This document shows, piece by piece, positions 1 to 54,234 of a DNA stretch of 64,000 nt (within the stretch, counting starts at the first letter, position 1; each line of letters starts with the position of its first letter). The DNA lies in the NCBI GenBank assembly GCA_029168955.1, contig JAPDOI010000131.1:806001-870000 (forward strand), written 5' to 3'. The position numbers and the translations under genes are program-made. The DNA comes from Aplectana chamaeleonis. Lineage: Eukaryota > Nematoda > Chromadorea > Rhabditida > Cosmocercidae. The notes beneath the pieces are model-generated. The model did no database searches. It saw only the letters and a program-made list of their open reading frames with translations, and had not been told where the DNA came from.

Positions 1-1284
1 TCTTCTGCAGTGTCTCCCTGGTGACATTGGGAAAGAAGGTCTTGACACGACCTTCAGGGATCGCAGCTTTCATCGCCTTCCGGATGGCATCAGAGAAGTG
101 GCGCTCCTTCTGGTGTACATTGCCATTCCACGGATATTCGGCCGCTTGGCGGAGTGCAACCTCCCTGAACAGGCTCCAGTCTGCAAGGCCTAAATTGAGA
201 TAAGAACGATGATGAACACCTGTATAGGGAGCAAGAGAGTTAGAGAGATCGATATTGACAAAGACGGGAATGTGATCACTGGAAAGAGTTGTGGATGTAG
301 ACCAAGAGCAGGCATTAGAGAGATTAGAAGAGACAAGGGAGATGTCTGGGCTGGAAGATCGGCCGTAGGCAGGGAGACGAGTGGGCTGGTCATCGTTAAG
401 GATAACCAGATCGCACTCCTCCGCCCATTCTTCGACGTCATTTCCTCTAGCATCAGAGTCAAGCGATGAGCAGAACGTGTGAGCATTGAAGTCACCCGCA
501 AAGACAATTGAGGGAGATAGAGAGCAGTCATACAGCTGCTTGAGTAGAGGGATAGGGTTGTAGGTTGGTGGACAGGATGTAGGAGGAGGAATGTATATAT
601 TGAAAAGAGAAAGTGGAGTTTAGAGGTAGATGGATGGGTATGTACTCGAGAGTGCCATATACTGGAGTGTTTGGAATGATGTGAGAGGGAAGAGACGACA
701 GAACAAAGTAGAGACTCCGCCTCCCTGAGATAACCTAGGAGTATGATAAGCAGTATAGCCCATGATGTTTGGATGTCGAGAGGTAGCAGAGGGAGAGAGT
801 TTGGTTTCCTGAACCATGATAACATCCGGGTGATGAGTACGGGCAAAGAGAGATAATTCAGAAAGCTTGGCGCGAAGGCCGTTGAGATTGATATGTACAA
901 TAGAGAGGGGGCGGTTGGTAGATGAGGAATTTGAGTTACTGGAGGCGGAGCACACAATACAACGAAAGGAAGAATCGTGGTGCCTCACAGAGCTGAGACC
1001 CGAACAAGAGAAGTGCACCCACCTTTCGCATCCAAAACATTGGACGCTGGTTCCATACCAATTGACATCTCTGTCGCATGTGGCACATGGGTACTTCTTC
1101 TTCGCGGGTCCTGGGTTCCTCTCGACGCCGGCTCTTTGCAGTAAGATCTTCAGGAGAGCTGCGGCCAGCCAGCACCTCTCCCATGACAAAAACCCTCTCC
1201 GCGGAGGGATTGACGTCGGTTTGCACGGAGGTGGTCTTCTTTCCTCCACACTGCCACGGCACGAACGTACGACATCTCGGCAGC
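1..1284 (-). mobile_element. LINE copy 1 (family A), 5' portion, 3' part outside the window
   Basis: This is the 5' third of a non-LTR retrotransposon read right to left. It starts at 1284 with the family's common 5' sequence GCTGCCGAGATGTCG and runs off the left window edge inside the endonuclease-RT linker. It aligns by eye, with few differences, to 53055-54347 (copy 4). In the 2A frame it encodes the Leu-rich stretch and GVERNPGP (1106-1129), then a PHD-like finger (C-x2-C, C-x2-C, H-x2-C, C-x2-C) and the APE endonuclease start (HINLNGLRAKLSEL, VQETKL). A one-base loss near 700 relative to copy 4 shifts the frame, so it is a pseudogene. It is inserted in a hAT-like element whose uninterrupted counterpart lies around 32765. 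Confidence 0.9.
1106..1129 (-). other. 2A-like octapeptide GVERNPGP in LINE copy 1
   Basis: The minus strand reads GGC GTC GAG AGG AAC CCA GGA CCC, preceded by the Leu-rich residues AAALLKILLQRA. The 2A consensus is D(V/I)ExNPGP; Gly replaces Asp here. In 2A elements the ribosome fails to form the final Gly-Pro bond, separating upstream and downstream products. Activity of this variant is unknown. It lies 6-7 residues before the first zinc-finger Cys. Confidence 0.75.
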
Positions 1285-2312
1285 TCGAGCTCCCTACTGA
1301 AGGCTGGCTCAACCTCAATGCACGTACGTTAAACAATATGACACCGGGCTTGCGCCAACCTTCAATAGAGATGGCAAACTCTATATTATCTAGAGCGCAG
1401 AATCGGTCGCTCAGCCCAAGTTATTTTTTTCTATATCCACTGAATCACTTGCAGAATCGTAGCTTCATGGTGACGATACTGTAGATTGGTAAAGGCAACG
1501 TAAGCATTGAAAAAGCTTTCCAAATTTTGCCGCTTTGTGTAGTTTAGTCCCAATAGTTAAGAAATATGGTCAAATCGCCCCATCAGACGCTCACACTTGT
1601 GAGAGATAAATGTTTCAGAAAATGGGCGAAGATGAGCATTAAACTTACGCTCACGCCTTTTCTGAGGGTCCGTTTGCTTCGGACGAAGAGAAATTAAGTG
1701 AAGGAAACGATTTTGAGCTTCGAACATTTGGGGTGAAAAACGAACGATCCTTATGTTGATTTTTGTGGACTCTGAGAAGGCGTAATCTACTCAGAAGCAG
1801 GTGTCAGGAGCACTGTCAAGCAAATTTTAGATCAATTAGACTGCCTAGCTCGATGTTCGAACGCTAATCTAGTTATACAATTCAGGACAGTTGATCTTCA
1901 TTAAAAACGCGAAAACGAAGTTCCTTGCGAAGAGTGCATGGCGTCGTAAGCGGCAGCTAGTGAGACGTGCGCGGCGCGCAACGCGGATCTCTTATCCAGC
2001 GCCTCCAACTCCGGCCATGTGTCCAGCGTTATAGTGATAGAATCACATCAAAGACTGATAACGGGATCGTGCTGCAGCCACGCGACTGGGTTGGTCTCAT
2101 CTTCTGACCAAATACATTAGTATATGCAAAGTGGGATTAGAGGAAGTCAATCGGAGATATCTTGCGATTTACTTCAATTGCCTGCATTTTTATTTACGAA
2201 AAATGACGATTTACGGTTCAAATGTCGTAAATCGTAAACCGTAATTACGAGACCAAAAAACACCGTAAATCGTAAAATCGTAAATCGTAAACCGTAATTA
2301 CGCACATCCCTG
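1285..2312. mobile_element. hAT-like non-autonomous element (CGTAAATCG family), right part
   Basis: The sequence from 1285 to 2312 is nearly identical to 32766-33790. It ends in CGTAATTACGCACATCCCTG, preceded by repeated CGTAAATCG/CGTAAACCG words on the inner side. Its left part lies beyond the LINE inserted at 1284 and so outside the window. The presumed 8-bp flank on the right is ATCAGAAT. No transposase reading frame is seen. The complete copy at 31960-33790 shows 8-bp target duplications, which support the hAT-like assignment. Confidence 0.8.
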
Positions 2313-2539
2313 ATCAGAATGCAATTTTCACCAAGACACGCATAAAGTTTGGAGAATAAATTTGAGAGTTTTGTGTGTCTCAATGGACATTTAAGACGTT
2401 TCTCATAATTCGTATTTTTTCCTTCGATCTTCCATCTCTCTGCTTGTGGCTGAAATAAAGAGGTCTCAGAGTGGTGAAACTACTTCGAGCCTTTCTTAAA
2501 TGATCGCGATGCACCGCAAAGAAAGGGATACCGACGCAC

Positions 2540-2650
2540 CTGTAGTTAGCATCATGCAAACAAGAAGACGAGTTGACTTCAATGAAAACAAAGGAACATC
2601 AGGAGGCTTGCCGACTTCTGATCCATCTGAACGTTCTGAAGCAGTCGAGT
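2540..2650 (-). CDS. Host gene exon 2, possible MFS/SLC17-like transporter N-terminus
   Basis: The exon is bounded by the acceptor ACATATCTTTCAG and the donor GTGCGT. It enters and leaves in phase 1, so it joins exon 1 (3588-3723) exactly through a His codon. It encodes a Ser/Glu-rich segment (STASERSDGSEVGKPPDVP), then SLKSTRLLVCMMLTTG, which looks like the start of a first membrane helix after a basic residue. That layout resembles SLC17-type transporters, but with about 80 residues visible the family is a guess. Later exons are not seen to the left; 1-2312 is transposon, so they probably lie beyond the window. Confidence 0.6.
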
Positions 2651-2714
2651 CTGAAAGATATGTCACATAGGGTGGCGATATAACGTCAAAGATCATAGCA
2701 GATGTATAGGGCGA

Positions 2715-3394: not shown

Positions 3395-3587
3395 GAAAAC
3401 CACATCTACAATACCACACCATGCCGAGATTTATTGAAAGTCGAACGTGGAATCTCCGTGGAGAGGTTTGTCGGATTTTCCTAAGAGTCCATCTTCTAAG
3501 TGTTGTCTTTGTGTTTTACGGGACTGATCATCGGCAAATTTGAAAAAAAAATGTTGTAAATCAACGAGTGGAAGAACAAGAACTCAC

Positions 3588-3723: not shown

Positions 3724-3734
3724 TTTGCTAGCGA

Positions 3735-5816: not shown

Positions 5817-6900
5817 GACGTCCTGCACACTTTCTATGACATCCTGCACACTCCCATTAATGCCCTGCTTCCTACCACTGATGGCCCGCACACTTTCTAC
5901 GGCGTTTTGCGCACACCCATTTGGGTCACAGGTACGTTCCTGCCGATCATTTTTTCCGGAGGGCTACCGTTACCCTCCTTCAAAATTTTACAAATGTTTG
6001 CACAATTTCGACCTCCTCAGTCACTTCCCAGCGGCTTCTCGAAGAGAGCGGTGTGTGGATGAATGCAAACCGCTCCTCTGCCCTTTTATACCCCGCATGT
6101 TATGAGCGTGTGTTATCGTTCGTTATCATGTTTTCTTCAAGAATGGTTACGGTAGCACTGCGGAAAAAATGATCGATATGGGCGTGCTTGTATTTGGGTC
6201 CCGCACACTTTCTACGGCGTCTGGCGCACGCCCACTTGGATCCCACACACTTTCAGCAGCGTCCGGCGCACTTCCACTTGGGTACCGCACAATTTATACG
6301 GGGCCGGGCGCATCCCACTCGAGTCCCACACACATTCTACGGAGTTCTGCGCGCATCTTTTTGAGTCCCGTACACTTTTTACGGCGTCCGGCGCACTCCC
6401 ACTTGGGTCCTGCGTACTTTCTACGGCGTCCGGTGCACTCCCACTTGGGTCCTGCGTACTTTCTACGGCGTCCTGCGCATCCCATTTGTGTCTCGCACAC
6501 TTTCTACGGCGTCCGGCGCACTCTCATTTGGGTCCCACACACTTTCTACGGCGTCCGGCGCACTCCCACTTGGGTCCTGCGTACTTTCTACGGCGTCCTG
6601 CGCATCCCATTTGTGTCTCGCACACTTTCTACGGCGTCCGGCGCACTCTCATTTGGGTCCCACACACTTTCTACGGCGTCCTGCGCATCCCATTTGTGTC
6701 CCGCACACTTTCTACGGTGTCCGGCGCACTCCCACTTGGGTCCTGCGTACTTTCTACGGCGTCCTGCGCATCCCATTTGTGTCCCGCACACTTTCTACGG
6801 CGTCCGGCGCACTCTCACTTTGGTCCTACACACGTTCTACGGCGTCTTGCGCACTCCTGCTGGGGTCCCGCACACTATCTACGGCGTTCTGTGGCGCATT
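5817..6900. repeat. 42-bp tandem satellite with three-monomer higher-order pattern
   Basis: Monomers begin TTTCTACGGCGTCC. Between about 6400 and 6840 three variants recur: A (GGCGCACTCCCACTTGG, 42 bp), B (TGCGCATCCCATTTGTG, 41 bp) and C (GGCGCACTCTCATTTGG, 42 bp). Stretches read A-B-C, A-B-C. The region before 6196 is degenerate. Because 42 is a multiple of three, frames on both strands stay open and give 14-residue repeats such as HTFYGVRRTPTWVP. I regard these as by-products, since the 41-bp B monomers switch the frame repeatedly. Confidence 0.85.
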
Positions 6901-8085: not shown

Positions 8086-9734
8086 AATTTTGACCGCTGG
8101 GATGCTGCAGGCCGTGGGGAAGAAACAGCGGTGCGGTCGATTGCGGCTGGGATCGCCCTTCTAGTACGGATCAGGACTGCGTGGGTTGATCGACCGAGTG
8201 CTGTAGCGAGTATTCACGTAGTATATGCGGGCGCTGTATCTAAAATTTCACCAAATGATGCTAAACTTCTCGTAATTTACGTAAATTCTCGTGTCAAAAT
8301 TAGACTAGATGCCTCCAAAAACCTGGGAATCTCCGGTTTCTGTGTGAGGCATATAGTTACGCGCTGGCAGAATTGCACGGATTGAACGTCTTATTTTTTG
8401 GTGCACGTGCTGTAATTTGAAATACCATAGGAGCACGTGCTCCCCTGGCAGCACGTCCTCTCACTGTGCTCTGACTTGTTTTTGAGTTGATTGCATATCA
8501 ACACGTATCGAACGCGGCGATTGTCTGAGTATGTGGCGCTGACAGGCAAAATATTGCCGCAGCTCTCGCAGCAGCACGTGATCCTATCTTCATCCCAAGG
8601 CGGTCGAGGGGTTCGGAGCCTCGACCCTCGATATGAGCGGTGTCCCACCCTTCCATAAGGACGGGGTCTAGCCCCACAAAGATACGGTCCATATCACGGT
8701 CCGCACTGAGGGAAACCCCCACCGCAGTCCGTAAGAATGACATCACCCTCACCACGGCCGACACGAGGGAGCTTACCCACTACAAAACGTTACAATTCAC
8801 ATCACTCGAGGCGCGAGCGGCGCGCGCGACGTCTGGGCCTCCGTCTACCCTCCGCTCTCTCACTGTCTCTAACCTTCGCCCCCAAACAGCACGCGTAGGA
8901 ATCATGTGAATTTCGCCGTGTTATAGCCTGTACCTCGCTGAGAAGTGTGAATAAGACCTCAGCAGTCAAAAATCATCCAAGAGGTGACTTGTGGTCACCT
9001 TCCTGGAGCAGCGCCGGAAGGCCAACTGCGTTCTCTAGGCAATAGGGCTTCTTATATAATATATGTGTAAGACTTGTGCTACCGCACATTCATCTCATTT
9101 AGACGACGATGCGGCCCAGTACTGCTCAAGGAGTATCGAGCCGTATCGTCGTCCACGGCGCTTCAAAGCCGACTCGAAAGCGTATCGTGGCCGAATCAGA
9201 CCCCTATACGGCCCAAAGTTGTTGTTTTGGGCGAGTGTGGCCTGCTCCTTGGATAGCAGGCTCAGGCGTACGGTATGACGATCACAAAGGGGCGGGGGGC
9301 GCAGCCTTAGGCGCCGGGTAGGGGGGGGGCGCAGACCCCCGGTCCGTCATCATGCCAAAACTTTCCCTCCTACCGTACCGAGCGGATTTTATTCGCAAAC
9401 ACGGCGATTTGCGGCCATTTCGCGCGCAGAAAGCGCCACATAGCCATAACTTGTTTCAGAGTCCTACGAATTGAAATTTGAAGCCTTTTTTGTTCACCTT
9501 TCAACGAGTACCATAAAATAGTGATGCGAAATAACTGAGTTGATACCCGCAATCAATCAAAAATTTCATATTTCTACATTGAAATCCCTCATTGTGAACT
9601 GATCAGACGGTCACCATAGAAAAAATGTAACCCGTTTCGACCTGTGGTCATTGGGAATCACAGAAAGAAATACAAGTACTACGATGAAACACCGGAGTCA
9701 GGAAGACTTTTAACATACCATTGTATTTAGCTCT
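8086..9734. other. Unassigned 1.6 kb with a dispersed repeat fragment
   Basis: No recognisable gene. CACGTG palindromes occur at about 8403, 8433 and 8575. The stretch 8785-8870 is the reverse complement, with mismatches, of 50713-50795 (shared GGCGCGAGCGGCGCGC core), so both belong to a dispersed repeat. A G-rich run near 9285-9345 may form secondary structure. LINE copy 2 begins at 9735. Confidence 0.4.
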
Positions 9735-9888
9735 CTGCCGAGATGTCGTACGTTCGTGCCGTGGCAATGTGGAGGAAACAACATCACCTTCGTGCAAACC
9801 GACATCACTAACTCCACCGAGAGGGTTTTTGTCATGGGAGAGTCGCTGGCTGGCCCCAGCTCTCCCGAAGATTCTACTACAAAGGGCT

Positions 9889-9912
9889 GGCGTCGAGAGG
9901 AATCCTGGACCT
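9889..9912 (+). other. 2A-like octapeptide GVERNPGP in LINE copy 2
   Basis: GGC GTC GAG AGG AAT CCT GGA CCT, preceded by ILLQRA. Relative to copy 1 the synonymous third positions differ while the octapeptide is unchanged, which suggests coding constraint. It is followed by the first zinc-finger Cys pair (CATC) and the second (CFGC). Confidence 0.75.
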
Positions 9913-10044
9913 GTGCAGAAGAAGTATCAATGTGCCACCTGCAGCAAGAAAGTCACCTGGAATGGAACAAGCGTCCAATGCTTTGGATGCCAAAGGTGGG
10001 TGCACTTCTCCTGTTCAGGTCTCAGTTCTGTGAGGCATCACAAC

Positions 10045-12102
10045 CAGGGGTGTGCGGCAATTGCCGTTTGCCGATTGCCGTTTGCCGGCCATTTTTGGGG
10101 TTTGCCGTTGCCGTTGCCGTTTGCCGAAATTTTTGCTTAAAACGGCAAATTTTCGGCAAAATGCGTTAAAACAACAGGGCCTGGTGTGCGCCCTCACCTC
10201 AGTTTCTGTATTGGTCAGCGATTCGAACCTGCAAGAAATACCTATTTTGGCTAGTTCCAGCTACTAGTTCCAGCTCATGCAATGCGTAATTGTACCCAGT
10301 TATCCTGTGACTAATGAAGATATTTAGACTAGATTATCAGAGGAGTTTGTTTAGGTTCTAAGTTGGGAGCCTCCAAATGTCTCTTCTTAATCATGAAATT
10401 TTTAACCCCTTAGAAATGCCTAAATCGCAAAAACGCTTTTTCAGAAGCATACCGATTGCTGCAAATTCCGGAATTGCAAAAACAAATGGTACAAAAGTTT
10501 TGGCGTGAAAGCATCTTTTTTTAGACATATGAACCACTTGAGAAATAGGCCCGCTTATCGTCGGTTGATTGACTGATGGTAATAAATGGGACAGTAAAAT
10601 GATCAATTCTGCAAATACTTTGTCCGGCTTTTTAAAAATTGAACAATGTTCACAGCGGTCATTATAGGCAGTGTTTAATAATATTTTCGATGTCGAGATC
10701 ATTAGCTGAAACGAAGGGTTGACGGCGCTATCGCAGTGAGGGGGGAGGCACTTGACCACGCCCATTTTTCTGCTCAGCTTCTACTCTACTAATTTTGGAA
10801 TGGGAGGAAAACCTTGGGTTGGTCCTCAAAATGCGCGGCGTCACGAAGAAATGGCATGGCCATGTGGGATGGCTAAGTGCCCCCTACCCGCTGCCATAGC
10901 ACCGGGTTGACTCCTTGGCAGAGCTGAGTTTGTTATGAAATGGTGTAGAGTTGAAAAAACGAAAAATTTTCGGAGGCAGCGATTGAAACCGCCTTCAAAA
11001 TTGTCACCTGAAATCAAAATGAGGCACATTGCAACAATAGTGTCGAAAACCGGCTTAAAACGAGCAATCAATAGCAATATACTGCCAAGAGATTTGAATG
11101 TGGTGTGCTCGCCCCACTCACTTCCTCGGTAACCACAGGGGAAGTGGGTGGGGCGGGCACAGCATATTCAAGTTTTGGTACCGTATAGAGTGATTTATTG
11201 TTTGTTTTTAGCCGACATTGTTGTTGTATTGATCCTCGTGCCGGCTTGTTTGCTGAATACACAGAATAGGAAACACCCAAGAGCAGTCGGCTGGCTAAAC
11301 GCACCGTGCGCGGCGCTCCAGCGGCGACACCGACTTTCTGTCGCCCGCGTCGCATGTGCCAGTCGAATTGGCACTAGGTGCCTCTCATTCTGTGTATTCG
11401 ATCAAAATGCCACTCAGAGCTCTTGATATCCGGTGAAAATTCGGAGACTGCTTTAATCGTGTGCACTGCATTTATTTAGACTAGTCTCACTCCACTCCTG
11501 TAGCTTCAAAAGGGAAACGATTCGAGCGAATTTTTCGATGAGCGAAATAAGGAACCCTGAGCCTACTATTTGTTACTAACAGCAAAAATTGTGAGTGACT
11601 ACGGTCATAAACTAAAGCGCGCGCTGCTGATTGCGGTATGGACTGTCTTCCTCCGAAAATGTCGACCAATCAACGCGTATTCATCCATTTATTCCCATCT
11701 GATTGTGGTACCGGTATCGGCCACAGTCTTTGGGTCGGCGCACTCTCCCACCGCACTAAGCTTGCTTACTCTCTGCTGCATGTGCCCGGATCGACTAGGC
11801 TGGGTCGCACAATCAAACGGTCTAGTTGAACTTGATAGAAGTTCCTATACTATCACACACAAAACAGCACTCTGATCACCTGAGGCTCTCAAGTGGCTTT
11901 TGATATATGGGATTTTCCCTTCTTATAAAAGCTAGTTAAATCACAGATACATAGTAACTGGCAAATATTGCATGGTTCACAACACGACTAATCAAATGTG
12001 GGTGTATTATAGCACAGAACAGTTTTTGCCGTTTGCCGGCCATTTTTGGGGTTTGCCGTTGCCGTTTGCCGAATTCTCAAATTCCTTTGCCGCACACCCC
12101 TG
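10045..12102. mobile_element. hAT-like non-autonomous element (GCCGTTT family), 2,058 bp
   Basis: Termini CAGGGGTGTGCGGCAA and TTTGCCGCACACCCCTG are inverted; subterminal sequence is built from GCCGTTTGCCG words on both sides. The flanking duplication ATCACAAC (10037-10044 and 12103-12110) is exact and 8 bp, as in hAT elements. Removing the element and one duplication restores the LINE reading (compare copy 3 at 27296-27310). The interior has no recognisable transposase; it holds a small foldback (11255-11399) and an inverted repeat around 11100-11170. Confidence 0.9.
11255..11399. repeat. Small foldback inside the hAT-like insertion
   Basis: GAATACACAGAATAGG and the inverted CATTCTGTGTATTC end a roughly 145-bp imperfect palindrome with a GC-rich centre. 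Probably a further nested MITE. Confidence 0.55.
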
Positions 12103-12110
12103 ATCACAAC

Positions 12111-15100
12111 TCATCCTTCCGTTGTGTTCTGTGCTCCGCCCCCAGCAACTCTGATTCCTCATTCACCAACCGCCCCCTCTCTATTGTACATATAAATCTT
12201 AACGGCCTTCGTACCAGATTGTCTGAACTCTCACTCTTCGAGCGTACTCATCATCCGGATGTTATTATGGTTCAAGAAACCAAACTCTCTCCTTCTACCA
12301 CTTATCCCCAACCAAACATTCCAGGCTACACTGCCTATCGTATCCCAAGGACAGCTCTTGGAGGCGGAGTTTCTACGTTTGTGCTTTCTAACTTACCTTC
12401 TCATCTGATTCCAAATGTTCCTAAGAACGGTGCTCTCGAGTGCGTTCCCGTTCACCTCCCTCTTGATACTCCATTATCTCTATTTAATATTTACATTCCT
12501 CCCTCCACTTCTTGTCCCCCGACCTACAACCCCATACCTCTTCTTAAGCAGTTGCATGACTGCTCTCTCTCCCCATCAGTTGTCTTTGCAGGTGACTTCA
12601 ATGCTCACACGTTCTGTTCTGCGCTTGAGTCCGACGCCAGAGGGGAAGACGTCGAGGAATGGGCTGAGGAGTGTGATCTGGTTATCCTCAACGATGATCA
12701 GCCTACTCGTCTCCCTGCCTACGGCCGACCTTCTAGCCCGGACATCTCCCTCGTTTCATCCAATCTTTCTAATTCTTGCACATGGTCCATTTCCACAACT
12801 CTTTCCAGCGACCACATTCCCGTCTTTCTCCATATTGATCTCTCAAACTCTCTTGCCCCTTATACTGGTATTCGTCAACGTTCTTATGTCAATTTAGGCC
12901 TTGCTGACTGGGTCCTGTTCAGAGAGGTTGCGCTCCGCCAGGCAGCTGAATATCCATGGAATGGCGATGTGCACCAGAAAGAGCGTCACATATCTGACGC
13001 CATCCGGAAGGCTACAAAAGCGGCCGTACCTGATGGACGTGTGAAAAGTTTCTACCCTAATGTCACCAGGGAGATTCTAAAGAAGATCAGGACAAGAGAT
13101 GAAAAGAGAGCTGAGAATCATTTGGACCCTGAGGTGGCCAAGTTGGATGAAGAGATAAAAAAGGATCTTGACAAGCACAAGAAAGACAGTTGGGAGAAGT
13201 TCACTGAAAGGTTGAAATTTAAAACCGACGGAACAACTGCGTGGAAAGTATTGAGGAAGATATCTGGAAAGTGCGCCCCCTCCTCGAACTCTACCATAGA
13301 GTTCGATAACAGCGTCTTCAAATCAGGATAGGCTGCCGCATATGCTCTTGGCAAAAATTTCTTCATCACACGTACCAAGCGTGGCGTACAAAACAGAGTC
13401 ACGGTAAGAGACCTAAGCCGTCTGCCGCTGATGAACGCCACTGAGGCCTTTACTGCTGCTCAAGTGGAGAAGGCTATCAAGGAAATGCGGAACTCGAAGG
13501 CTCTCGGACCTGATGGTATCTCAGCAGCCATCTTGAAGAAGCTTCCCACGGAACTTCTACCGATGATCGCAGATATCATAAACACTTCTTTCCGAACCTG
13601 CACTCTACCCCAAGCATGGAAGACCGCCAATGTGATGCCCCTGCCTAAGCCAGGCGAACCGCAAAGCACGGCGAAAGGCTATCGCCTTATTAGCCTGTTA
13701 TCACCGATCGCGAAAGTAGCCGAAAAGCTAATCGTAAGGGACCTGGCAGAGCAGAATGAGGCACAGCAACATCAACATGGGTTTAGAAAGCTTCACTCCA
13801 CCACCACTGCCCTTCTGGAGATTGTCAGCTATGCGGTCGATGGGTTCAATTTCAGAAAGCCTTTTAGAACAGTGGCCGTTGCCCTCGATCTAACCTAAGC
13901 ATTTGATTCTGTTAACCTAGGACTTTTGCCCGAGAAACTATTGAAGTCCTCGCTACAACCGTGGCAGAAGCGCTGGATCGCAGCGTTTACGAAAGGTCGT
14001 CGGGCCAAAGTGCTATTCCAGAATCACGTCTCCGATAGTATACCTGTAGCAGCTGGTGTGCCGCAGGGTGGAGTTTTGTCACCTGCCCTCTTCAGCCTGT
14101 ATATTGAAGACCTACCTGAACCTCCTGAAGATATAAAAATTGTTGCGTATGCCGACAATATCACCACCATGTGCCGTAATCGTGACATACAGGTAGCCGC
14201 AAACAAGATCAGCGTCTATCTCGTCGAGCTTAAAATCTTTCTCGAAAGTATGATGCTCACAGTTTCCGCGGCGAAGTCTTCTGTTTCGGTATTCACATCT
14301 GACCCAAAGGAACACAGCGCCCAACCTGTTGTCAGGTGGGATGGTGACCTCTTGCCTACAGCGCAATTTCCTAAACTGCTGGGCCTCGTTTTGGACCCAT
14401 CGCTGAAGTTTCACAAAAATGCTGAACAGAAGCAGGCAATTATCAAGTCGAAGCTTAATGTGTTGAGAGCTCTAGGAGGAACGTCCTGGGGTGGCAGCAG
14501 AGAGACAATCTTGACGACATATCGAGCTATTCTGCAGCCTGCATTGGAGTATGCTGCACCTGTCTGGCAGCACATCGTGTCGCACAGTTCCTGGACTAAG
14601 ATGCAGCGAATTCAGAATGCTGCACTACGAATAGCCACTGGATGTGTAAAAAGCTCACCGATTGAGCACCTTCACGCCGAGGCCCGTATCTTGCCAGTGA
14701 AAGAGCGTTGTCAGCTCCAGGCTCAGCAGATGATCATTAATGCCTAATCATCCGTCGAGAAGACTATTAAATCCCGTAAGTGAGAGATCGATCAGAGTGC
14801 CGTTTGCCGATGCTCCGAACAAGGTGAATGTACAGAGATGGACGACTTGAATCAAGAACGGCTTCGTCTCTTACGCGCGTAGCACACCCGGTTCGAGAAG
14901 GATCATCTCGCCAAAGCGGCCGTCAACCCTATTCTCGGTGATGTGCCGCCCAGGGTATGTGATACCGAGTCCGAGCTCGGTAGGCGCGCCAGGTGTATCC
15001 TCGCTTCGTTGCGCTGCGGACATTCTCCATTGCTTATGTCTTACCTGCACATGATCGACAATAGCCAGCCTGGCGTGTGCCCGGACTGTGGAAACCAAGG

Positions 15101-15206
15101 CCACGACACTAAACACCTATTTGATTGTCCGAAGAAGCCAACAACGCTCAGTACAATAGACTTGTGGACGAATCCAGTGCTGGTCGCCCAGTTTTTCAAC
15201 TTGTGA
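12111..15206 (+). pseudogene. LINE copy 2 endonuclease-reverse transcriptase remnant
   Basis: After the hAT insertion the frame resumes at the last zinc-finger residues. APE endonuclease motifs follow: HINLNGLRTRLSEL, VQETKL, GGGVSTFVL, FAGDFNAH, PSSPDISLV and SSDHIPVF. The reverse transcriptase has KPGEPQSTAKGYR, HGFRKLHSTTTALLEI, AVALDL, GVPQGGVLSPALF and AYADNI, where the second Asp of YADD is changed to Asn. The C-terminus carries CPDCGNQGHDTKHLFDCP. In-frame stops at 13329-13331 and 13896-13898 and a deletion near 14747 inactivate it. Confidence 0.9.
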
Positions 15207-15257
15207 CGAAACCCCTCTCAGTGGCTGCAAAGAAGAAGAAGAAGAAGTATTTACCTC

Positions 15258-26775: not shown

Positions 26776-27075
26776 CTGAGTTTTGGCCGAGAAATAGCCG
26801 CGAAACAGACACAAAATGCCTTTTCCCGAGTAATAGTCGCGAAATAGCCGCTAAATATAGCTGGCTGCGAAATAGTCGCCAAATAATGCTCGCCGTAAAA
26901 TAGCCGCAAAATACCCGCTAAATTGCCGCCAAATTTTTGGTCTGCTTCGGTCTAGTTTTGTTTAGCTTAGTTGAGTTCAGTTGAGTTATGCGCGCTGCCG
27001 AGATGTCGTACATTCCACCGTGGCAGCGTGGAGGAAAGAAGATCACCTCTATGCAAACCGACGTCACCTTCTCCA

Positions 27076-30000: not shown

Positions 30001-30417
30001 ATCAGAAAGCCATCCGCCGATGCTCCAAGCAAAGTCAATCTGCAAAGATGGCACGATTCACAGCAAGAACGACTCCGTTTGTTGCGCGAGGAGCACACAC
30101 AGTTCGTACAGTGTCATCTGGAAAAGGCGGCAGTAAATCCCATCCTGGGAGTGGTACCGCCCCGTGTCTGCACATCCGAGTCTCAACTCGGAAGGAGGGC
30201 CAGATGCACCCTGGCATCGCTGCGCTGTGGTCACTCTACTATGCTTATGGCATATGTTAGCAAGATTGACAGCACCAAATCGGACGTTTGCCCAGACTGT
30301 GGATGCCACGGCCACGATACGGCACATTTGTTTGATTGTCCGGAGAGATCAACCACGCTGACCATAATGGACCTATGGACGAATCCATTATTGGTCGCCC
30401 AGTTCCTCAACCTATGA
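27076..30417 (+). pseudogene. LINE copy 3 2A/PHD/endonuclease/RT frame with three stops
   Basis: One frame is open from before the 2A motif (27148-27171) to the end at 30417 with no frameshift, broken only by stops at 27469-27471 (CAA to TAA, in VQETKL), 28750-28752 and 28972-28974. Order: PHD-like finger, APE endonuclease (GDFNAH, SDHVPVF), reverse transcriptase (AVALDLTKAFDTVN, GVPLGGVLSPALF, YADDI) and a C-terminal CPDCGCHGHDTAHLFDCP knuckle ending AQFLNL. Motif B has Leu where GVPQGG is usual. About 1,100 codons. The downstream half from 29071 is fully open. Confidence 0.92.
27148..27171 (+). other. 2A-like octapeptide GVERNPGP in LINE copy 3
   Basis: GGC GTG GAA AGG AAT CCT GGA CCC after RILLLRA. 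Codon choice differs from the other copies while all eight residues are kept. Confidence 0.75.
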
Positions 30418-31959
30418 CAGTACCCTCGACATGGCTGCAAAGAAGAAGAAGAGTTATGCGCGGTTTATGCGATGGCGAACTTCCTAGTGCTGCTTAGCCG
30501 TGCCCTACTCCGCAATCTCAGCGACAATTCAAAAAAAAAAAACTCAGCGACAAATCGTAGTAAGTCGTTGAGACCGACACCATGTCACTGGGAACTCGCC
30601 GCGTAATATTTCGCTTCCCAGCTCCATGAGACGTCCGGGCGACAACAGACGTCGAGTGGCTCAGGATCTGGCACGAACTTGAGACTACATCCAGCTGGTC
30701 GTCCTAGGTGGCTGGAAACCATCGAATTCCACGTGCAGCATTATGGAAGGAGAGAACTTGGGATTTTGCGGCAGAATTCAGGTGACGTTCACCGGGAAAG
30801 TAGACAAATAGCATCACCTCGAACCAGTTTCATGAAAATACACATGATAATGGCTCATTCTGGCCATCATCGTGAGAAATTTCCATGTTGCTCAAGTCTT
30901 GCTATACTTATGAGCCTCTCGAGATTTAAACTTTTCTCTATAACTAAAGGTGAAATGGGCATTTCTAGCATTTTGACAGAATCCTACGAGCGATTTAATA
31001 TATTGTAAATACTTGCTATACTAACTTGATATTTATGAGGTACTGAAGAATTGTGAGAAATTAGTAGTCACTACGCTAAGATGTTTGAAATGTAAAATCA
31101 GGGCAAAATGGAGTGCGATCTTGTCGAATATTCAAATTATTCGTGCTGAATATTCGAATAAACCGAATATTTCACTTATTTGAAGATTCGAATATTCGAA
31201 TAAACGAATATTCCACTTCTGTGAATATTCGATTATTCGAATAACCCGAATAATCCACTTCTTTGAATATTCGAATTATTAGAATATTCGATTATTCGAA
31301 TATTATTCGAATAAACGAATATTCGGGCAACACTCTAGCGCCCACATGGCCGCGAGCATGGCCGGCGTTTCCTTTCAATGTTTTGCCGAGTTTCGTCGTA
31401 AAAAAAACAAAAATTTCGGCAAACGACAAACGGCAAAAAAAGTCCCAAAAATGGCCGGCAAACGACAAACGGCAAACGGCAATTGCCGCACATCCCTGAT
31501 AGCGTTCTAACGTTGCGGTGAAGTGTATAAATAAAGTCCAACCGAAAATCCATACTTCACCCAAAGTTTGATTAGGGGGTAGTTTTGGGCGCTGAACACA
31601 TTTATGAGGTCTATTTTCGGATTTTCCAAAGACGCATCTGCGCATTTCAGAAGGTACAAAAAGCAAGAAAAAGGACCGCTTTATACTCGTGAATTTTTGG
31701 AACCTGCTTCTCGGGGCAGGATCCCGCGCAGTTTTACTATGGAGATCTAAGAGATTAGAACATTGAAAAATATAAGTCGTTTTTGCAGATGCGTTTACCC
31801 CCATAAACACTTCCCTTGTAAGACCGAGCTCTCAATTTCTTCGAATAAACGAGATATTAGAAGAAGCTTCACTGGCACTCCCCCCCCCCCTTTGACGAGT
31901 CGTAGTGGGCAACAAAACGGGAAAGATAAAAAAATCCATTACCTTGAGCCTCAATGGAA

Positions 31960-40617: not shown

Positions 40618-41390
40618 TATCGATTGGGAATCGATATGTCAGACATGTTATGCGGCCGCGCGTTGCATGAGTGTAAACCCAATCCAGAATACATAAATGG
40701 TGATTTCAGGGCTGCAAAAACTTTTCCTCTTCAATAGCGCCACTAGAAATGAGCCGGTCATAGTTACCACTTAAGAATCGGTTCTCACTCAACAACAAAA
40801 GTGGAATCATGGGAAACAGTCCAGAAGAAAGGCAGAAAGAGAAAGTGCAGATAGATTCTGTTTTAGACAAACAACACAATTCATAAAAGGTAGACGACTC
40901 GCGTTTGTCATTGGGCCCAGGCGTAGTTATATACATAGTTCCGCTGGTAGTGCCGAACAGAGCTATGCTTTGCGTGTCGCGGTGAGTTTGGCTCGCATAG
41001 AATTGAACATGAATGGAGCGCTCGGCGACAGAACTATAAACGGGCCTTGCGCCGCAGTGCTGTTGTAGTTCGTGCACAACTTATTGAAGCACATTGCACC
41101 CGGCCCGATCAGCTGGTGTAAAGGTGAGATTTTGGCTTCGTGTTAAATCGCGTGAATAGAGTAGAGTTGGGAGCGAGTTAGTCAATCAGGCTATTCCATG
41201 CATAACGACTAACTCGTTTACAGCTTTACTCCTTTCGTATATGGTTGTTGTTGTTGTTGTTGCCCATCATCCACCATACACACTGATCCTGGATCAAATT
41301 TCCGGCATATTGACGACGTCATCGAAGCAACATTGCTGGTATCCTCTTCTTTGGAAGATCCCTGAGTGGGGCTTTTTTCCACCCTCTTTT
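40618..41390. other. Unassigned intronic 0.8 kb with a (GTT)n run
   Basis: No exon could be joined in phase. A GTT microsatellite of seven units lies near 41243, and 41390-41485 is almost pure T with scattered A, which is the A-rich 3' tail side of LINE copy 5 on the minus strand. Confidence 0.4.
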
Positions 41391-41504
41391 TTTGATTTTT
41401 TTCATTTAATCTTTTTTTTTAGAATTTTTTTTATATATTTTTTCTTTTTTATTTTTTTAAACCGTTTTTCTTTTTTTTTACATTTCAAATACAGTACTGC
41501 ATAA

Positions 41505-44500
41505 TTAAAGTGACAGGATATGGGCTACTTCCACTGGTTTGAGCCAGAGATCTTCTATTGTGAGGTGCGTTGGCCTTCCAGAGCAAGAGAACATGTGAGG
41601 TACTGTGTGTTCCTCAAGCCCGCAGTCTGGACAAAGTGGATTATCTGCTGCTCCTATCTTATGTAGATACCATTGCGACTTCGAATAGAAACCGCTCCGG
41701 AGATGAGATAGCGCTGCCCGACTTGGTCTTGGCAAAGTCTCCTCCTCCTTAGCAATCTTCGGCGGGGGTCCACTTAGCAAGGGGGAGTTCATAGTAACCA
41801 GGAACTCCTTATCAAACTCTTTGTGCACTTCTTTGCGAATGCTTTCCGCGTTTCCTGGCCTGGACCAATATTGGCTTGATCGTTCTGACATGCTTTCTGA
41901 TCTGTCTTGGTGGTTCCGATTTCTTCATCATGTCGTGTGAGGGATGTTCTGGATCAAGTGCCGCAACCGTTCGATATTGAAGCGTCAACATCTCGTTATG
42001 AGCTTTGACTGGCATGATTCCCGTCTCATTGCTGAGGTGGGTAGTGCCAGCCATCGCCAGGCTTCCCGTCGCGGTCCTCAAGGCTGCATTTTGACACGCT
42101 TGTAACCGATCCCAGTGAGTCGACGCAATGAGCGGGCTCCAGGCTGGAGCAGCGTAGGACATCACGGATTGTCCGGTGGCGCGGTAGGTCAGTGTGAGCA
42201 GCTCTTTGCTTTGTCCCCAGTTTCTTCCTGCCAACGCTTTCAAGAGATTCGCTCTTTTAGCCGTCTTCTTGCGAACATCTTCCGCATGTAGTCGACCCGT
42301 CATCATAGTGTCGAAATGGTAGCCGAGAATTGTCGGATTTCTTTCGTGTGTGATCTGCATCCCATTTATGAACACTTTCGGTACATATCTCGCTTGAGCA
42401 GAATGTGTTGTTAGAAGAGAGACAGTGGTCTTCTGCAACGACAGTTGAAGATGTAGATCTTCCAGAGCCTTTGTTAGCTTCGGAAGATATTCGTTCAGAC
42501 GCTTTTCGCAAGTTTCAATATCTGGATGTGACGCCACCAGTGTTAGGTCATCCGCATATCCGACTAGACGTGTTTCTGGAGGGGGTGCCGGGAGATCTGC
42601 TATGTAGAATGAGAACAGGAGCGGAGATAGAACTGCACCTTGCGGTACCCCGGAGCGCACCAATCTTACTTTCGACATCTGGCCTCTAAACTCTGTCCGT
42701 ATTGTTCTGCCTTTCAGGTAGCTAGAAATCCATCGGGCTAAACCTCTCGGTAGGGATGACTCGGCAAGCTTTTTGACAAAGAATGGAGATAACCACAGTG
42801 TCATATGCTTTCTTCAAGTCGAGTGCAACCATAATTGAGCGGCTAGGCGGTCTCTTCTCATTTAACCCATCCGTGATGAATCCGGTCAATTCGACCAACG
42901 CTGAGGTTGTGGAGAAACCTTTCCGAAAACCATTCTGCCATCCAGGGATTTGCAGGTGCGTCTCCAGTGTAGGAAGAATGGTTCTTTCAAAAGTGCGTGC
43001 CATAGATGAAATGATCGAAATGGGCCTGTAGCTGTTCAGATCTTCTGCAGGTTTACCAGGCTTCATGAGTGGGAAAATTCTCGCCTCCTTCCACGACGCC
43101 GGGATCAGTCCAGTTGACAGGGTTCTGTTGAAAAGGGCTCTAAGGCACTCCCGAAAAATTGGTCCTGAATGCTTGAGCATTACAGGGGCCACACCACTTG
43201 TATCCAACGCTTTAGACGGCTTGCATTTCTTCAAGGCAGCGTCGATGACGGCTGTCGAAATGATGGGAACGTCTTCTCTCGGAAAGTTTTTGATCTATCG
43301 GAAGGTCCTTCGTGACGACTTCATGCTTTTATGAGGGCATGGCGAACTGAACTGTTTGCATAAAAGGTTGGCCGCATTCTTGTTTCTCAACGGTTTGCCC
43401 CTATGCAGAATTTGGATGGGATTGGGTTTCACTGAACGGCCATCCAGAGCCTTCATGGTTGCCCATAGCTTCGAAGAGTTTGTACGATGATCAATGCCTT
43501 CCACGAAAGTTCTCCATGTCTGCTGTCGGTCCTTCCTCACTTCATCAGCGATTTCTCTGTTCAGCTCAGGGATTCTGGTGCTGGTCGGGTCCGTTCTTCT
43601 GATCGAGTCTCTCTCACATATGAGGTCCTTAGCGGTGTCCGACAGTACCGGCATAAAAGCCTTACGTCTGCCCTTAGGGATAGCTTGTGACGCTGCTGTC
43701 CTTACGGCCAATGCGAGAAATCGATCCATTTCCAGTGGAGTGGCCCGGAAGTCGAAATCCGCCGATTGTTGTTCCAGCACTGACAGAAATTTGGGCCAAT
43801 CCGCCTTTTTGAAGTTCACGAAAGTGTTCCTCGGTGACGAAGATATAAGGGCCTCGCTTCTGAACTCCATCAGGATAGGAAGATGGTCACTTGCGCCTGT
43901 GTTAACAGTGTCCCAAACTGCTGACGATGCTAGGTCCTGTGAGCACAGCGAGAGGTCCGGTGACGATGGTCTTCCATACGTCGGCTTCCTAGTAGGGTGA
44001 TGGGCATCATTGAGAATCACAAAATTCGACTGCGCTATCTCCTCCTCGAGGTCCTGTCCACGTTGGTCCTCTTCACCCTCTGACCATAGAGGACTGTGCG
44101 CATTGAGATCCCCATGACGACTGTGGGTTTCCCGCATGTCAGGAATTGGGCGATAGACAGCTCGTATGCGGGTGGGCATGAGGACCTAGGCGGAGAGTAG
44201 AGATTGTGAATGTGCACAGATCCAGCCTTCGTTTCCACAGCTAAGGAGATGCATTCCGTCGTACCATCTCTGGCTCCTGGAGTGATCACACTGCACTGTA
44301 AGTTGTTTCTGACCAGAAAGGCCACACCTCCTCCGGAACTCGTTCGGTCATTTCTCAGGCATGTGTAGCCTCGAACCACCGGTGGTCCTTGATTGGGATC
44401 CAGTTTAGTCTCTTGGAGTCCCACAATGTCAGCTCCCATGCGGTGTGCGAGAGCTTCTAGTTCCGCTGATTTGTTGCGAAAACCATTTATATTCCACTGG

Positions 44501-44810
44501 ATCATCTTTAGAGAGTCCGGACTTGAGCGCAGAGGTTGATATGTCGGTACGGAGACGCAGCTAGGGCACACGTATGAGCTGTCCGCATCCTTGAAGGACT
44601 TGAGACCGGAGCATTTCTTCACATGAGTCCATTTCCTGCATTTGCTACATTGAACGCTCCCTGCAGCGGCTGAGGTCCCACACTGGGTGCAGGGCCATCG
44701 AAACCGGCGAGGGGGTCCAGGGTTTGCTTCGATTCCGGCACGGATGAGTAGACAACGGATCAGCAGCGCCGGTTTATGCTGACCCGCAACCGAAAAAATT
44801 GGCTCCAGAA
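41505..44810 (-). pseudogene. LINE copy 5 2A/zinc finger/endonuclease/RT remnant
   Basis: Right to left: LLIRCLLIRAGIEANPGP; zinc finger (CTQC, CSKC, WTHVKKC, CPSC); endonuclease (IQWNINGFRNKSAELEALA, LQETKLDP, NLYSPPRSSCP, PSSPDLSLC, ASDHLPILME); reverse transcriptase (KPAEDLNSYRPISIIS, NGFRKGFSTTSALVEL, VALDLKKAYDTV, GVPQGAVLSPLLFSFY, GYADDLTLV); C-terminal CPDCGLEEHTVPHMFSC. The segments fall in several frames (breaks near 44.1, 43.3, 42.8 and 41.9 kb), so it is dead. Confidence 0.9.
44713..44736 (-). other. 2A-like octapeptide GIEANPGP in LINE copy 5
   Basis: Minus strand GGA ATC GAA GCA AAC CCT GGA CCC, preceded by PALLIRCLLIRA. Same position relative to the zinc finger as in family A, and the same Gly in place of the consensus Asp, but different x residue and Ile for Val. 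There is no ATG upstream in this frame before a stop near 44883. Confidence 0.75.
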
Positions 44811-45197
44811 CTCGTGAGAAGTGAATTCTGGGAGGTATAGTTGAGGATCTTTGACTTCGGAAGGATGGCGGCCATTGTAGACGACTTCATCTTCCGCGTA
44901 CGCTCTTGCCAAACGAGTAGGCTATCCTCCATAAGAGCTTCGTATATGGTTGCGCATCAACTAAATAATGCAGCGATGCGACGCGGTCGCTAAAAACTCG
45001 ATCAGAGTTCGACCCGACAGCGAGTGATGAAGGGGAATCGATCGTGACAGCCATATCATTGATATTCCTTCACTGCAATCTGCAATGCCGTACGGGGTCG
45101 GACTCTTATTGAGCCCTAGCACTACTCGCAACGCTCAAAATGGTAACAATGTGGTGACTATTTCGGTACGCCGAAAATATATTGTTCGAAAACTCAC

Positions 45198-50795: not shown

Positions 50796-50921
50796 GTTTT
50801 ATAGAGGGTGTGTCATATATTTTTGCAACGCACCGCACTGTATGCCCGATATGAACTGTCGCTGACGTGGGTATGATCGCGGTCTTCTTCTTCTTCTTCT
50901 GCAGCCACAGAGAGGGTCCTG

Positions 50922-53900
50922 TCATAGATTGAGGAACTGAGCCACAAGCGTCGGATTCTCCCACAGATCTACTGGTGTTAACGATGTCGGTCTCATCGGG
51001 CAGTTGAAAAGGTGCGCAGTAGTATGCCCTTTATTACCACAATCCGGGCACTCGTCAGGTCGGCTGCTATCGATCTTATGTAAATAAGACATAAGCATGG
51101 GGGAGTGCCCGAAGCGCAACGAGGCAGGGGTGCACCTGGCACGCCTATCGAGTTCCATCTCGGTTTCGCTGACCTCAGGCGGCACGACTCCGAGAATGGA
51201 GTTTACGGCGGTCTTGCATAAGTGATCCTTGACGAATTGGGTATGCTCAGCACGTAAGAGACGGAGGCGTTCTTGTTCTGCGTTGGTCCATCTCTGTATA
51301 TTGATTTTCGTGGGAGCATCAGCAAACGGCTTTCTTATACTTCTCTCTCTGACGGGGTCTAATACTCTTCGCGACGGATGATTTGGCTGCTTCAGGATGT
51401 TTATGTACAGCTGTTGTGCATGGAGTTGGCAATAGTCCTTAACTGGGAGGATGCGAGCCTCGGCGTGTAGGTGCTCTACTGGAGAGCTTTTAATACAGCC
51501 TGTTGCGATTCGCAATGCTCCATTTTTAATGCGCTGCAGCTTGGACCAGGATGTGTCCGACACGATATGCTGCCAGACTGGTGCAGCATACTCCAGGGCG
51601 GGCTGTACGATGGCCTTGTACGTGGTCAGGATCGTTTCTTTATTGCATCCCCAGGACGTTCCGCCGAGAGCACGTAGGACGCTAAGTCTTGTTTTCACTG
51701 CAGCTTTCTTCTGCTCAGTGTTCTTGTGAAACCTCAACGAAGGATCCAACACGAGTCCGAGCAGCTTAGGGAATCGGGCGGCCGGTAGGCGAGTTTCGTC
51801 CCATTTCACCATGGGATGAGCTCTGTGCTCCGCAGGATCAGTGGAAAAGACGGTGACGGATGATTTAGCGGCAGAGACCGTAAGCATCTTGCTATCGAGA
51901 AAACATTTCAACTCGATCAAGTAGTCATTGATCTTACTGGCAGCTACATTTATGTCGCGATCCCGGCATAGTATAGTAATATCATCCGCATATGCTACGA
52001 CCTTGATGTCTCGGGATGGAACGGGTAGATCTTCAATATACAGACTGAAAAGAGCAGGCGATAGAACTCCTCCTTGAGGTACGCCGGCGGCAATTGGGAT
52101 GCTATTGGAGACGTGCTCTTGAAACAGCACATTTGCCCGACGTCCTTTGCTGAATGCGATTATCCACCGCTTCTGCCAGGGCGGAATGGTAGACCTTAAC
52201 AGGCTCTCCGACAAAATGCCCAAATTTACAGTGTCAAAAGCCTTCGCTAGGTCGAGGGCTACACCTACGGTACGCTGAGGTTTCATGGCATTGAAGCCGT
52301 CCAAAACATAGCTCACAATTTCCAGCAGGGCCGTAGTGGTGGAATGTAGCTTACGGAAACCATGTTGATGCTGTTGTTTGCTATTATGTTCGGCAAGCTC
52401 CTCCACAGCCAATTTTTCCGCAACTTTGGCAATAGGGGAGAGAAGACTGATTGGCCTGTAACCTTTTGCCGTGGATGGTGATTTACCCGGCTTCGGCAAT
52501 GGGATGACACGTGCTACTTTCCAATCTTGAGGTAATGTACAGGTGCGAAACGATGTACTAATGACTTCAGCGAGCAGGGGTAGTAGTTCATTTGGCAGTC
52601 TCTTTAGAACTGCTGGGCTCAAACCATCTGGCCCTACTGCCTTCGAGTTACTCATTTCCTTGATAACCTTCTCGACCTGAGCGGGCGTGACTGCATCATC
52701 TTCAGCCATGAGTGGCAATTTACAGAGTTCCCGAACAGTTATTCTATTCTGCTTCTCTCTTTTTGATTTAGTTATGAGAAAATGCTTCCCAAGAGCATTT
52801 GCGGCCTCTTTCCTGACTTCTGAAGCCTCCCCCGTCGAATTCAATCGTGGAATTGTTGGCGGAGGTGATCTTTCCGGAGATCCTTTTCAAAGCCTTCCAC
52901 TTTGCTGCAGCATCACTCCTGAAGTTCATCTTCTCAGTGAACTTTTCCCAAGATTCTTTCTTGTGCCTATCAAGGTCCATCCTGATCTCATTATCCAGCT
53001 CGGCAATGTCTGGGTCAAGATTATTAGCAGCTCTGTTTGCGTCCCTTGTCCTTATCTTCTGCAGTGTCTCCCTGGTGACATTGGGAAAGAAGGTCTTGAC
53101 ACGACCTTCAGGGATCGCAGCTTTCATCGCCTTCCTGATGGCATCAGAGAGGTGGCGCTCCTTCTGGTGTACATTGCCATTCCACGGATATTCGGCCGCT
53201 TGGCGGAGTGCAACCTTCCTGAACAGGCTCAACCCTGCAAGGCCTAAATTGAGATAAGAACGATGACGAACACCTGTACAGGGAGCAAGAGAGTTAGAGA
53301 GATCGATATTGACAAAGACCGGAATGTGATCACTGGAAAGAGTTGTGGATGTAGACCAAGAGCAGGCATAAGAGAGATTAGAAGAGACAAAGGAGATGTC
53401 TGGGCTGGAGGATCGACCATAGGCAGGGAGACGAGTGGGCTGGTCATCGTTAAGGATAACGAGGTCGCACTCATCCGCCCATTCTTCGACGTCATTTCCT
53501 CTAGCATCAGAATCGAGCGACGAGCAGAACGTGTGAGCATTGAAGTCACCCACAAAGACCATTGAGGGAGATAGAGAGCAGTCATACAGCTGCTTCAGTA
53601 GAGGGATAGGGTTGTAGGTTGGTGGACAGGATGTAAGAGGAGGAATGTATATATTGAAAAGAGAAAGTGGAGTTTTTAGAGGTAGATGGATGGGGATGTA
53701 CTCGAGAGTGCCATCCACTGGAGTGTTTGGAATGATGTGAGAGGGAAGAGACGACAGAACAAAAGTAGAGACTCCGCCTCCCTGAGATGACCTAGGATTA
53801 TGACATGCAGTATAGCCCGGGATGTTTGGATGTCGAGAGGTAGCAGAGGGAGAGAGTTTGGTTTCCTGAACCATGATTACATCCGGGTGATGAGTACGGG

Positions 53901-54234
53901 CGAAGAGAGATAATTCAGAAAGCTTGGCGCGAAGGCCTTTGAGATTGATATGTACAATAAAGAGGGGGCGGTTGGTAGATGAGGAATTGGAGTTACTGGA
54001 GGCGGAGCACACAATACAACGAAAGGAAGAATCGTGGTGCCTCACAGAACTGAGACCCGAACAAGAGAAGTGCACTCACCTTTGACATCCAAAACATTGG
54101 ACGCTGGTTCCATATCAATTGACATCTCTGTCGCATGTGGCACATGGGTACTTCTTCTTCTTCTGAGCGGGTCCTGGGTTCCTCTCGACGCCGGCTCTTT
54201 GTAGTAGGATCTTTAGGAGAGCTGCGGCCAGTCA
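50922..54234 (-). pseudogene. LINE copy 4 2A/PHD/endonuclease/RT, nearly intact
   Basis: In the 2A frame there are two Trp-to-stop changes (TGG to TGA) at 54232-54234, upstream of GVERNPGP (54169-54192), and at 54076-54078 in the zinc finger. The frame is then open to about 52823, where one frameshift moves the reading to the 640-codon frame ending at 50922. Motifs: HINLKGLRAKLSEL, VQETKL, GDFNAH, SSDHIPVF, KPGKSPSTAKGYRPISLL, HGFRKLHSTTTALLEI, VALDLAKAFDTVN, GVPQGGVLSPALF, YADDITIL, CPDCGNKGHTTAHLFNCP. All catalytic motifs read as consensus. Confidence 0.92.
54169..54192 (-). other. 2A-like octapeptide GVERNPGP in LINE copy 4
   Basis: Minus strand GGC GTC GAG AGG AAC CCA GGA CCC, preceded by AALLKILLQRA. 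Same sequence as copy 1, consistent with their close relationship. Confidence 0.75.

Follow-up and report, generated by a model that had tools for sequence, protein, structure and literature searches.

How a long interspersed nuclear element (LINE) starts the translation of its enzyme, and why it should carry a 2A-like peptide ahead of that enzyme, are questions raised by a stretch of 64,000 nucleotides (nt) from the nematode Aplectana chamaeleonis (contig JAPDOI010000131.1, positions 806,001 to 870,000; hereafter the window). The window holds four copies of one LINE family (A1 to A4) and a single copy of a second (B). A sequence-only reading had reported the octapeptide GVERNPGP in the four family A copies and GIEANPGP in family B, each after a Leu-rich run, and all five are present at the positions claimed, with the run ahead of every one. 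The larger finding, as far as the sequence can tell, lies outside the frame of that reading: all five elements start with a double-pseudoknot fold like that of the hepatitis delta virus (HDV) ribozyme, located at the boundary given by a target-site duplication (TSD) or an empty site, 154–202 nt upstream of the octapeptide, and no in-frame ATG lies in between. The explanation that we favor, at a probability of about 0.65, is that the ribozyme frees the 5' end of the RNA, translation starts without a normal AUG, the 2A peptide sheds the leader, and the enzyme begins at the proline before its zinc finger.

The element boundaries were set independently of the fold: TSDs mark them in A2, A3, A4 and B, and a copy of the empty site does so in A1. 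TSDs of 10–14 nt flank all four copies with both ends inside the window, being exact in A3 (11 nt, GAGTTATGCGC, at 26983–26993 and 30451–30461) and B (14 nt, CAACCATATACGAA, at 44939–44952 and 41234–41247) and carrying one mismatch each in A2 (10 nt, 9724–9733 and 15248–15257) and A4 (12 nt, 54348–54359 and 50872–50883). For A1, a repeat copy at 32766 that is free of the insertion stops matching exactly at the first base of the element (1285/1284). The full-length copies measure about 3.46 kb (A3, A4) and 3.69 kb (B). The endonuclease families PF14529 and PF03372 and the reverse transcriptase (RT) family PF00078 score above the Pfam cut-off in pieces of A3, A4 and B (in A4, the endonuclease lies within 52768–54075 and the RT within 50922–52886), and a C-terminal Cys/His motif can be read in both families. 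An endonuclease/exonuclease/phosphatase domain followed by an RT, TSDs and a 3' simple-repeat tail place these elements among the non-long-terminal-repeat retrotransposons of the apurinic/apyrimidinic endonuclease (APE) type. The PHD-like finger falls just under the Pfam cut-off in both scanned pieces that hold it; it does follow the octapeptide, as had been claimed, but its first Cys stands by reading at 6–8 residues rather than 6–10. Two observations on the surroundings of the copies may be recorded here: A1 was inserted at the edge of one copy of a direct repeat of about 900 bp (1285–2190 and 32766–33668, 98–100% identical over the listed stretches), and the roughly 2 kb of sequence splitting A2 (10042–12104) includes repeats common to 31405–31498 and 24451–24511.

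In A1 and A4, helix P1 pairs positions 1–6 with 30–35 (G1.U35), P2 pairs 9–15 with 67–73, P3 pairs 17–19 with 27–29 and P4 pairs 38–42 with 54–58, while P1.1 is formed by C22–G36 and the J4/2 strand reads C and then AAA. The corresponding parts of B are P1 GCTCTT/AAGAGC, P2 GAGGAT/ATCCTC, P3 GCC/GGC, P1.1 C22–G38 with A21–U39, and J4/2 CAAA. The same fold precedes the octapeptide by 171 nt in a LINE outside the window (L001, contig JADGDE010000022.1), whose 2A peptide is of the D type, i.e., with Asp at the first position, and whose reading frame, counted from the octapeptide, continues without a stop for 1279 codons; the contig is filed in a Thiotrichales bacterial metagenome-assembled genome and is very likely eukaryotic contamination. 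The nested double pseudoknot of P1, P2, P3, P1.1 and P4 is found in A1/A4, B and L001, and the catalytic-type C in J4/2, followed by AAA, in A1–A4, B and L001. P1.1 consists of one pair in family A and of two in B and L001. P1 and P2 are separated by 2 nt in A and L001 and by 3 nt in B; a spacer of some bases at this place is reported to be required (PMC4908430). The predicted cleavage site, the first base of P1, coincides with the element boundary set by the TSDs and the empty site, A2 having a T there. Compared with A1/A4, pairing is kept by U11.G71 to U-A and G39-C57 to G.U in A2, and by G1.U35 to G-C and a G.U in place of the first P4 pair in A3. Among the A copies, four base differences retain pairing versus three pairs broken (two in P1 of A2, one in P3 of A3).

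A strict descriptor (P1, P2, P3, P4 and J4/2 as C-N-R-A), scanned over both strands of the window, matched the 5' ends of four of the five elements (A1, A3, A4, B) and one other place; in 100 block shuffles, each strand had 0.46 starts on average and 2 at most. The 5' end of A2 is matched by neither version of the strict descriptor. Both strands of 79 fetched loci, 1.10 Mb in all, yielded 15 starts, 13 of them outside L001, where the starts at 88 and 89 represent one fold. Within the window, 25669–25779 and 10157 (−) are the other places meeting one or other version; they lie in repetitive sequence and are probably chance matches.

From the first ribozyme base to the octapeptide, an in-frame ATG occurs in none of the six elements (A1–A4, B and L001). 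The 2A frame is open from the element 5' end to the octapeptide in A1–A3, and single in-frame stops occur in A4 (codon −14) and B (codon −51). Candidate starts with a purine at −3 and G at +4 are a GTG shared by the four A copies at codon −40 and a CTG at −24 in B; B also has an ATA at −63, upstream of its stop, and the L001 leader has no near-cognate candidate in that context.

The 2A peptide itself is recognizable by the StopGo core (D/G/C/N)(V/I)ExNPGP, present in all five copies in place of the older D-only form. This pattern occurs five times in the window and in none of 150 Markov-1 windows of equal size. The upstream stretches LLQRAG, LLLRAG and LLIRAG suit StopGo motif 5, by reading and without a motif score. 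The sequence-only reading had stated that third positions vary across copies while the residues do not, and had proposed a comparison of synonymous and non-synonymous change, which was run on the four A copies of the window. Five of the eight third positions of the octapeptide vary and none of the 16 first and second positions (p = 0.0013), and all its codon changes are synonymous; the count of five synonymous and no non-synonymous variable codons compares with 11 and 19 among the remaining ungapped codons of the stretch −17 to +41 (p = 0.013), three of these 19 being stops, all in A4, which is decayed. In codons −17 to −10, no synonymous and six non-synonymous variable codons are seen, versus 10 and three in codons −9 to +7 (p = 0.003, with zones drawn post hoc on data already seen), codons −9 to −1 alone contributing five and three. 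Protein-level constraint therefore seems to begin at the Leu-rich run, and selection on the encoded peptide appears to start only about nine codons upstream of the octapeptide. These figures were computed for family A only, B being a single copy, and describe one lineage, because common descent links the four A copies. With this, the presence of 2A-like peptides in APE-type nematode LINEs is supported, and protein-level selection on the core is seen in family A.

Gly at the Asp position had been taken as a shared D-to-G change that might define an inactive lineage-wide variant. This view finds no support, Gly being a major StopGo class (PMC12846837, PMC6249498). The viral StopGo core has been widened to (D/G/C/N)(V/I)ExNPGP, with 1,207 one-off G matches versus 908 exact D matches; G is as frequent as D among viral core motifs and is counted as functional (PMC12846837). 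A natural GxExNPGP 2A is active in transfected cells (PMC6249498), and the idea that the copies are dead on account of Gly was rejected on this published G-type activity (PMC12846837, PMC6249498). In Leu-rich motif 5 the upstream run ends with (A/G/S)G at the Gly position, and motifs 2 and 6 end with (A/S/C)G just before Asp (PMC12846837). A comparable pattern is seen among 187 collected proteins (the best 120 of 524 matches to the RT of family A, one from a region search, 65 from an RTE search and one window translation). Thirteen of them bear the motif, seven of the G type, one of which is from a sand fly (P0054), and six of the D type; a first protein set had given 11, six G and five D. The 13 of 187 is no rate, because the other 174 may start later or belong to other families; of these 13, P0186, retrieved in the RTE search, probably belongs to a different kind of element, and P0103 is a rearranged near-copy of P0086. 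Ala precedes Gly in seven of seven G-type proteins and Gly precedes Asp in six of six D-type proteins. The two types seem to differ by a one-codon shift of an (A/S)G dipeptide, LLxRAG-(V/I)E versus LLxxSG/AG-D-(V/I)E, for which loss or gain of a codon, rather than mutation of Asp to Gly, would be the plain reading; with this 7/6 split, a private nematode D-to-G event is unlikely. On an RT tree of 41 of the 124 rows (every motif row but P0103; the window copies A3, A4 and B; and every fourth other), a single change with support 100/100 sets the G types apart from the D types. Families A and B are not grouped, with moderate support (A 87/80, B 91/85) that leaves their places under the marks 95 and 80, B having a long branch and A3 and B filling less than half of the columns. 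With the two families apart on the tree, Gly is unlikely to be confined to a single nematode lineage. Searches for further relatives returned little: a region search with residues 1–110 of P0037 gave two proteins, one being P0037 itself, protein alignment against IMG/VR found none, and each of two degenerate octapeptide patterns picked up a single contig (L080, L081) whose translations, on reading, did not look like those of a LINE.

Taken together, the putative layout comprises a 5' HDV-like ribozyme, a short ATG-less leader, a Leu-rich G-type 2A, the PHD-like finger, endonuclease, RT, Cys/His motif and repeat tail. A neighboring promoter would drive transcription of the element, and the ribozyme would cleave at its own first base, leaving an exact, uncapped 5' end. 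Ribosomes would then enter without a normal in-frame AUG, and at the 2A peptide the Gly-Pro bond would be skipped, the leader released and translation continued. The enzyme would thus carry the Pro just ahead of the finger as its N-terminus, whatever the start site. The boundary fold, the lack of an in-frame ATG, the selection on the family A octapeptide and the fit to G-type StopGo are the parts taken from the sequence; cleavage, a non-AUG or cap-independent start, skipping and a disposable leader are the parts that we infer. The leader sequence would be dictated by the ribozyme, its start perhaps variable, and 2A would remove it. A bolder and distinctly tentative extension, which we would not expect to hold in full, sees 2A as a normalizer of the N-terminus after varying or non-AUG starts and the ribozyme and 2A as an ancient co-selected pair that spares the element a promoter, a cap and a start codon of its own; the first 70–100 nt would act as an RNA enzyme, with no freedom to adapt their codons to the protein, and skipping would remove any leader made and yield a single uniform product.

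Several points weigh against the favored explanation. Rfam gave no match in the whole window at the gathering threshold and no ribozyme family up to E = 10 in the 5' stretches of A4 and B; A1–A3 were covered at the gathering threshold only, and L001 was outside the Rfam scans. The descriptor was written after by-eye folding of A1, and its P4 limits were altered after a looser scan had already ranked the B site first. The first strict version (P4 of at least 4 bp, short span) matched A1, A3, A4 and 10157 (−) and missed B; in 20 Markov windows it produced 0.25 starts per strand. Scores in the looser scan were 28 for B and 26, 24, 27 and 26 for A1–A4, and 60 random stretches reached 26; as sole evidence it was rejected as too permissive, since 85% of the 60 random 701-nt stretches matched (best 26), and upstream of an RTE-type open reading frame (ORF) in the window its best matches were 22–23. 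P1.1 of family A is single-paired, P3 of A3 and P1 of A2 are damaged, and none of the five copies has an unbroken ORF. Among viruses of known host, D prevails over G (PMC12846837). Furthermore, several relatives have a predicted Met ahead of the Leu-rich run, so an AUG-less start is not general. The folds might be due to chance, or be a promoter or replication signal with fortuitous pairing, as the missing Rfam match and a descriptor background of about one start per 85–140 kb (13 starts in 1.10 Mb when L001 is set aside; a shuffle mean of 0.46 per 64 kb) would allow. Yet the matches stand at independently defined boundaries in two dissimilar window sequences and again upstream of 2A in L001, which leaves such an origin very improbable. 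The B fold was ranked first in a loose scan of the upstream region of B before the abutting 14-nt TSD was noticed; the B flanks were on view before that scan, and the TSD search came later. The fold is retained despite the Rfam result because the boundary data are independent of it.

Other alternatives accept the peptide and dispute how it is reached or what it does. An active 2A might have nothing to do with an odd start, with an AUG that intact copies possess or that trans-splicing or a host exon provides; 2A would simply yield a separate short product. The homologues P0037, P0094 and P0044, with a predicted Met 13, 13 and 19 residues upstream of the octapeptide, agree with this, and fusion to a host exon is conceivable because the frame of A1–A3 is open from the element 5' end to the octapeptide, that of A4 having one stop. 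However, A1–A4, B and L001 all lack an in-frame ATG between the first ribozyme base and 2A, B has its in-frame stop at codon −51, and ribozyme cleavage would remove a host fusion; we regard a separate product of this kind as unlikely. Initiation at an out-of-frame ATG (element position 100/101 in all four A copies), followed by a frameshift into the 2A frame ahead of the Leu-rich run, would fit the invariance of that ATG with the 14 bases before and six after it, and also the third-position excess in the 2A frame, which is seen only downstream of it. No slippery site is named, none having been searched for; the ATGs of B belong to a reading frame that terminates ahead of the octapeptide and the single ATG upstream of the octapeptide in L001 is out of frame, so that a frameshift has only a slim chance of being the answer. 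Finally, Gly may inactivate the peptide, which would be kept only as a linker before the finger: replacement of Asp by Ala abolished activity in one viral context (PMC12846837), and loss of activity upon Asp mutation in the classical motif is cited in PMC6249498. Against such a linker stand the commonness of functional G motifs in viruses (PMC12846837), the working natural GxExNPGP 2A (PMC6249498) and the fact that the residues conserved in family A are those of the core motif; it is improbable. The ribozyme-first, AUG-less start with 2A removal of the leader is the explanation that we carry forward. The coordinates of the features are collected in the table.

Table. Elements of LINE families A and B in the window, with their 5' folds, octapeptides and zinc fingers
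Feature	Position	Strand	Remarks
A1, family A copy	1..1284	−	truncated at window start; repeat without insertion marks 5' end
A1 HDV-like fold	1212..1284	−	G1 at 1284; descriptor match; same letters as A4
A1 octapeptide	1106..1129	−	GVERNPGP, 2A-like; read in sequence
A2, family A copy	9734..15247	+	about 2 kb of other sequence lies within it (about 10042–12104)
A2 HDV-like fold, damaged	9734..9806	+	T at position 1; P1 two pairs short; P2, P3, P4 and J4/2 retained
A2 octapeptide	9889..9912	+	GVERNPGP; read in sequence
A3, family A copy, full-length	26994..30450	+	ORF broken, with pieces of endonuclease and RT; tail of (AAG)n
A3 HDV-like fold	26994..27065	+	one P3 pair lost, L3 one base shorter
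A3 octapeptide	27148..27171	+	GVERNPGP; read in sequence
A3 PHD-like zinc finger	27193..27330	+	Pfam PHD, E 4.7e-05, 23.8 bits, cut-off 24
A4, family A copy, full-length	50884..54347	−	broken ORF; (AAG)n tail
A4 HDV-like fold	54275..54347	−	descriptor match
A4 octapeptide	54169..54192	−	GVERNPGP; read in sequence
B, family B copy, full-length	41248..44938	−	broken ORF; (AAC)n tail
B HDV-like fold	44843..44938	−	6-bp P1, 6-bp P2, 3-bp P3, 2-bp P1.1, 9-bp P4 with one bulge
B octapeptide	44713..44736	−	GIEANPGP; read in sequence
B PHD-like zinc finger	44557..44691	−	Pfam PHD, 20.2 bits, cut-off 24

Other repetitive and mobile sequences share the window. The RTE-type ORF mentioned above (37541–40570, +) encodes an intact endonuclease-RT of 1009 amino acids that is 71% identical, over 99% of its length, to a protein of Necator americanus; the ORF may belong to an active element. 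The ORF 19184–19639 (+) presumably represents the N terminus of a mariner-type transposase, and that at 46130–46651 (+) is one which we take to be a piece of a Penelope-like RT. A tandem repeat with units of about 42 bp at 6188–6891 is open in three frames, and a long (TA)n microsatellite occupies 57765–58316.

HDV-like ribozymes have been reported in nematodes; ribozyme and 2A are each known, and the pair is known in L1Tc. L1Tc carries both the L1TcRz ribozyme and an active 2A, and the L1Tc/ingi elements of trypanosomatids resemble families A and B in their 5' HDV-like ribozyme, self-cleaving 2A, AP endonuclease and RT (PMC4748587, PMC4035085). L1Tc also encodes RNase H and a nucleic acid chaperone, whereas no RNase H family matched in the eight pieces scanned against Pfam. 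Families A and B further differ from L1Tc in the PHD-like finger right after 2A, the G-type 2A, the metazoan host and the lack of an in-frame ATG. By analogy they would present the L1Tc layout in animal LINEs, the likeness being one of layout, set against L1Tc by description. The 2013 survey by Odon and colleagues reportedly searched for D-type motifs and described no 5' ribozyme. Its APE-type LINEs of multicellular organisms share with families A and B the type of element and the 2A-like peptide. R2 elements are similar in having a ribozyme placed at their 5' junction, with a catalytic C and a variable P4, and in the cap-independent start proposed for them (PMC3774820, PMC12203849); they insert in 28S rRNA genes, whereas the copies described here have differing flanks, TSDs of 10–14 nt, an APE-type endonuclease and 2A. 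In R2, HDV-like ribozymes are considered to promote translation initiation, and a cap-free start of ribozyme-processed RNA has been proposed (PMC12203849). The peptides are like viral G-type StopGo motif 5 in G(V/I)ExNPGP and in a Leu-rich run ending in AG at the Gly position, and unlike it in their retrotransposon setting and in having R or A, not the preferred P, just before NPGP (PMC12846837). Motifs 1, 3, 4 and 6 were assayed; motif 5 is catalogued and not listed as assayed (PMC12846837). A literature search by titles and abstract starts found no paper on the pair of ribozyme and 2A in animal LINEs, and no priority is claimed.

If the pair holds, a natural class of G-type, Leu-rich StopGo peptides would be supplied that matches motif 5 (PMC12846837). 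The question of why LINEs carry 2A would also be linked with that of how uncapped, ribozyme-processed LINE RNAs are translated, and, if true, 2A would be what renders sloppy or AUG-less initiation harmless.

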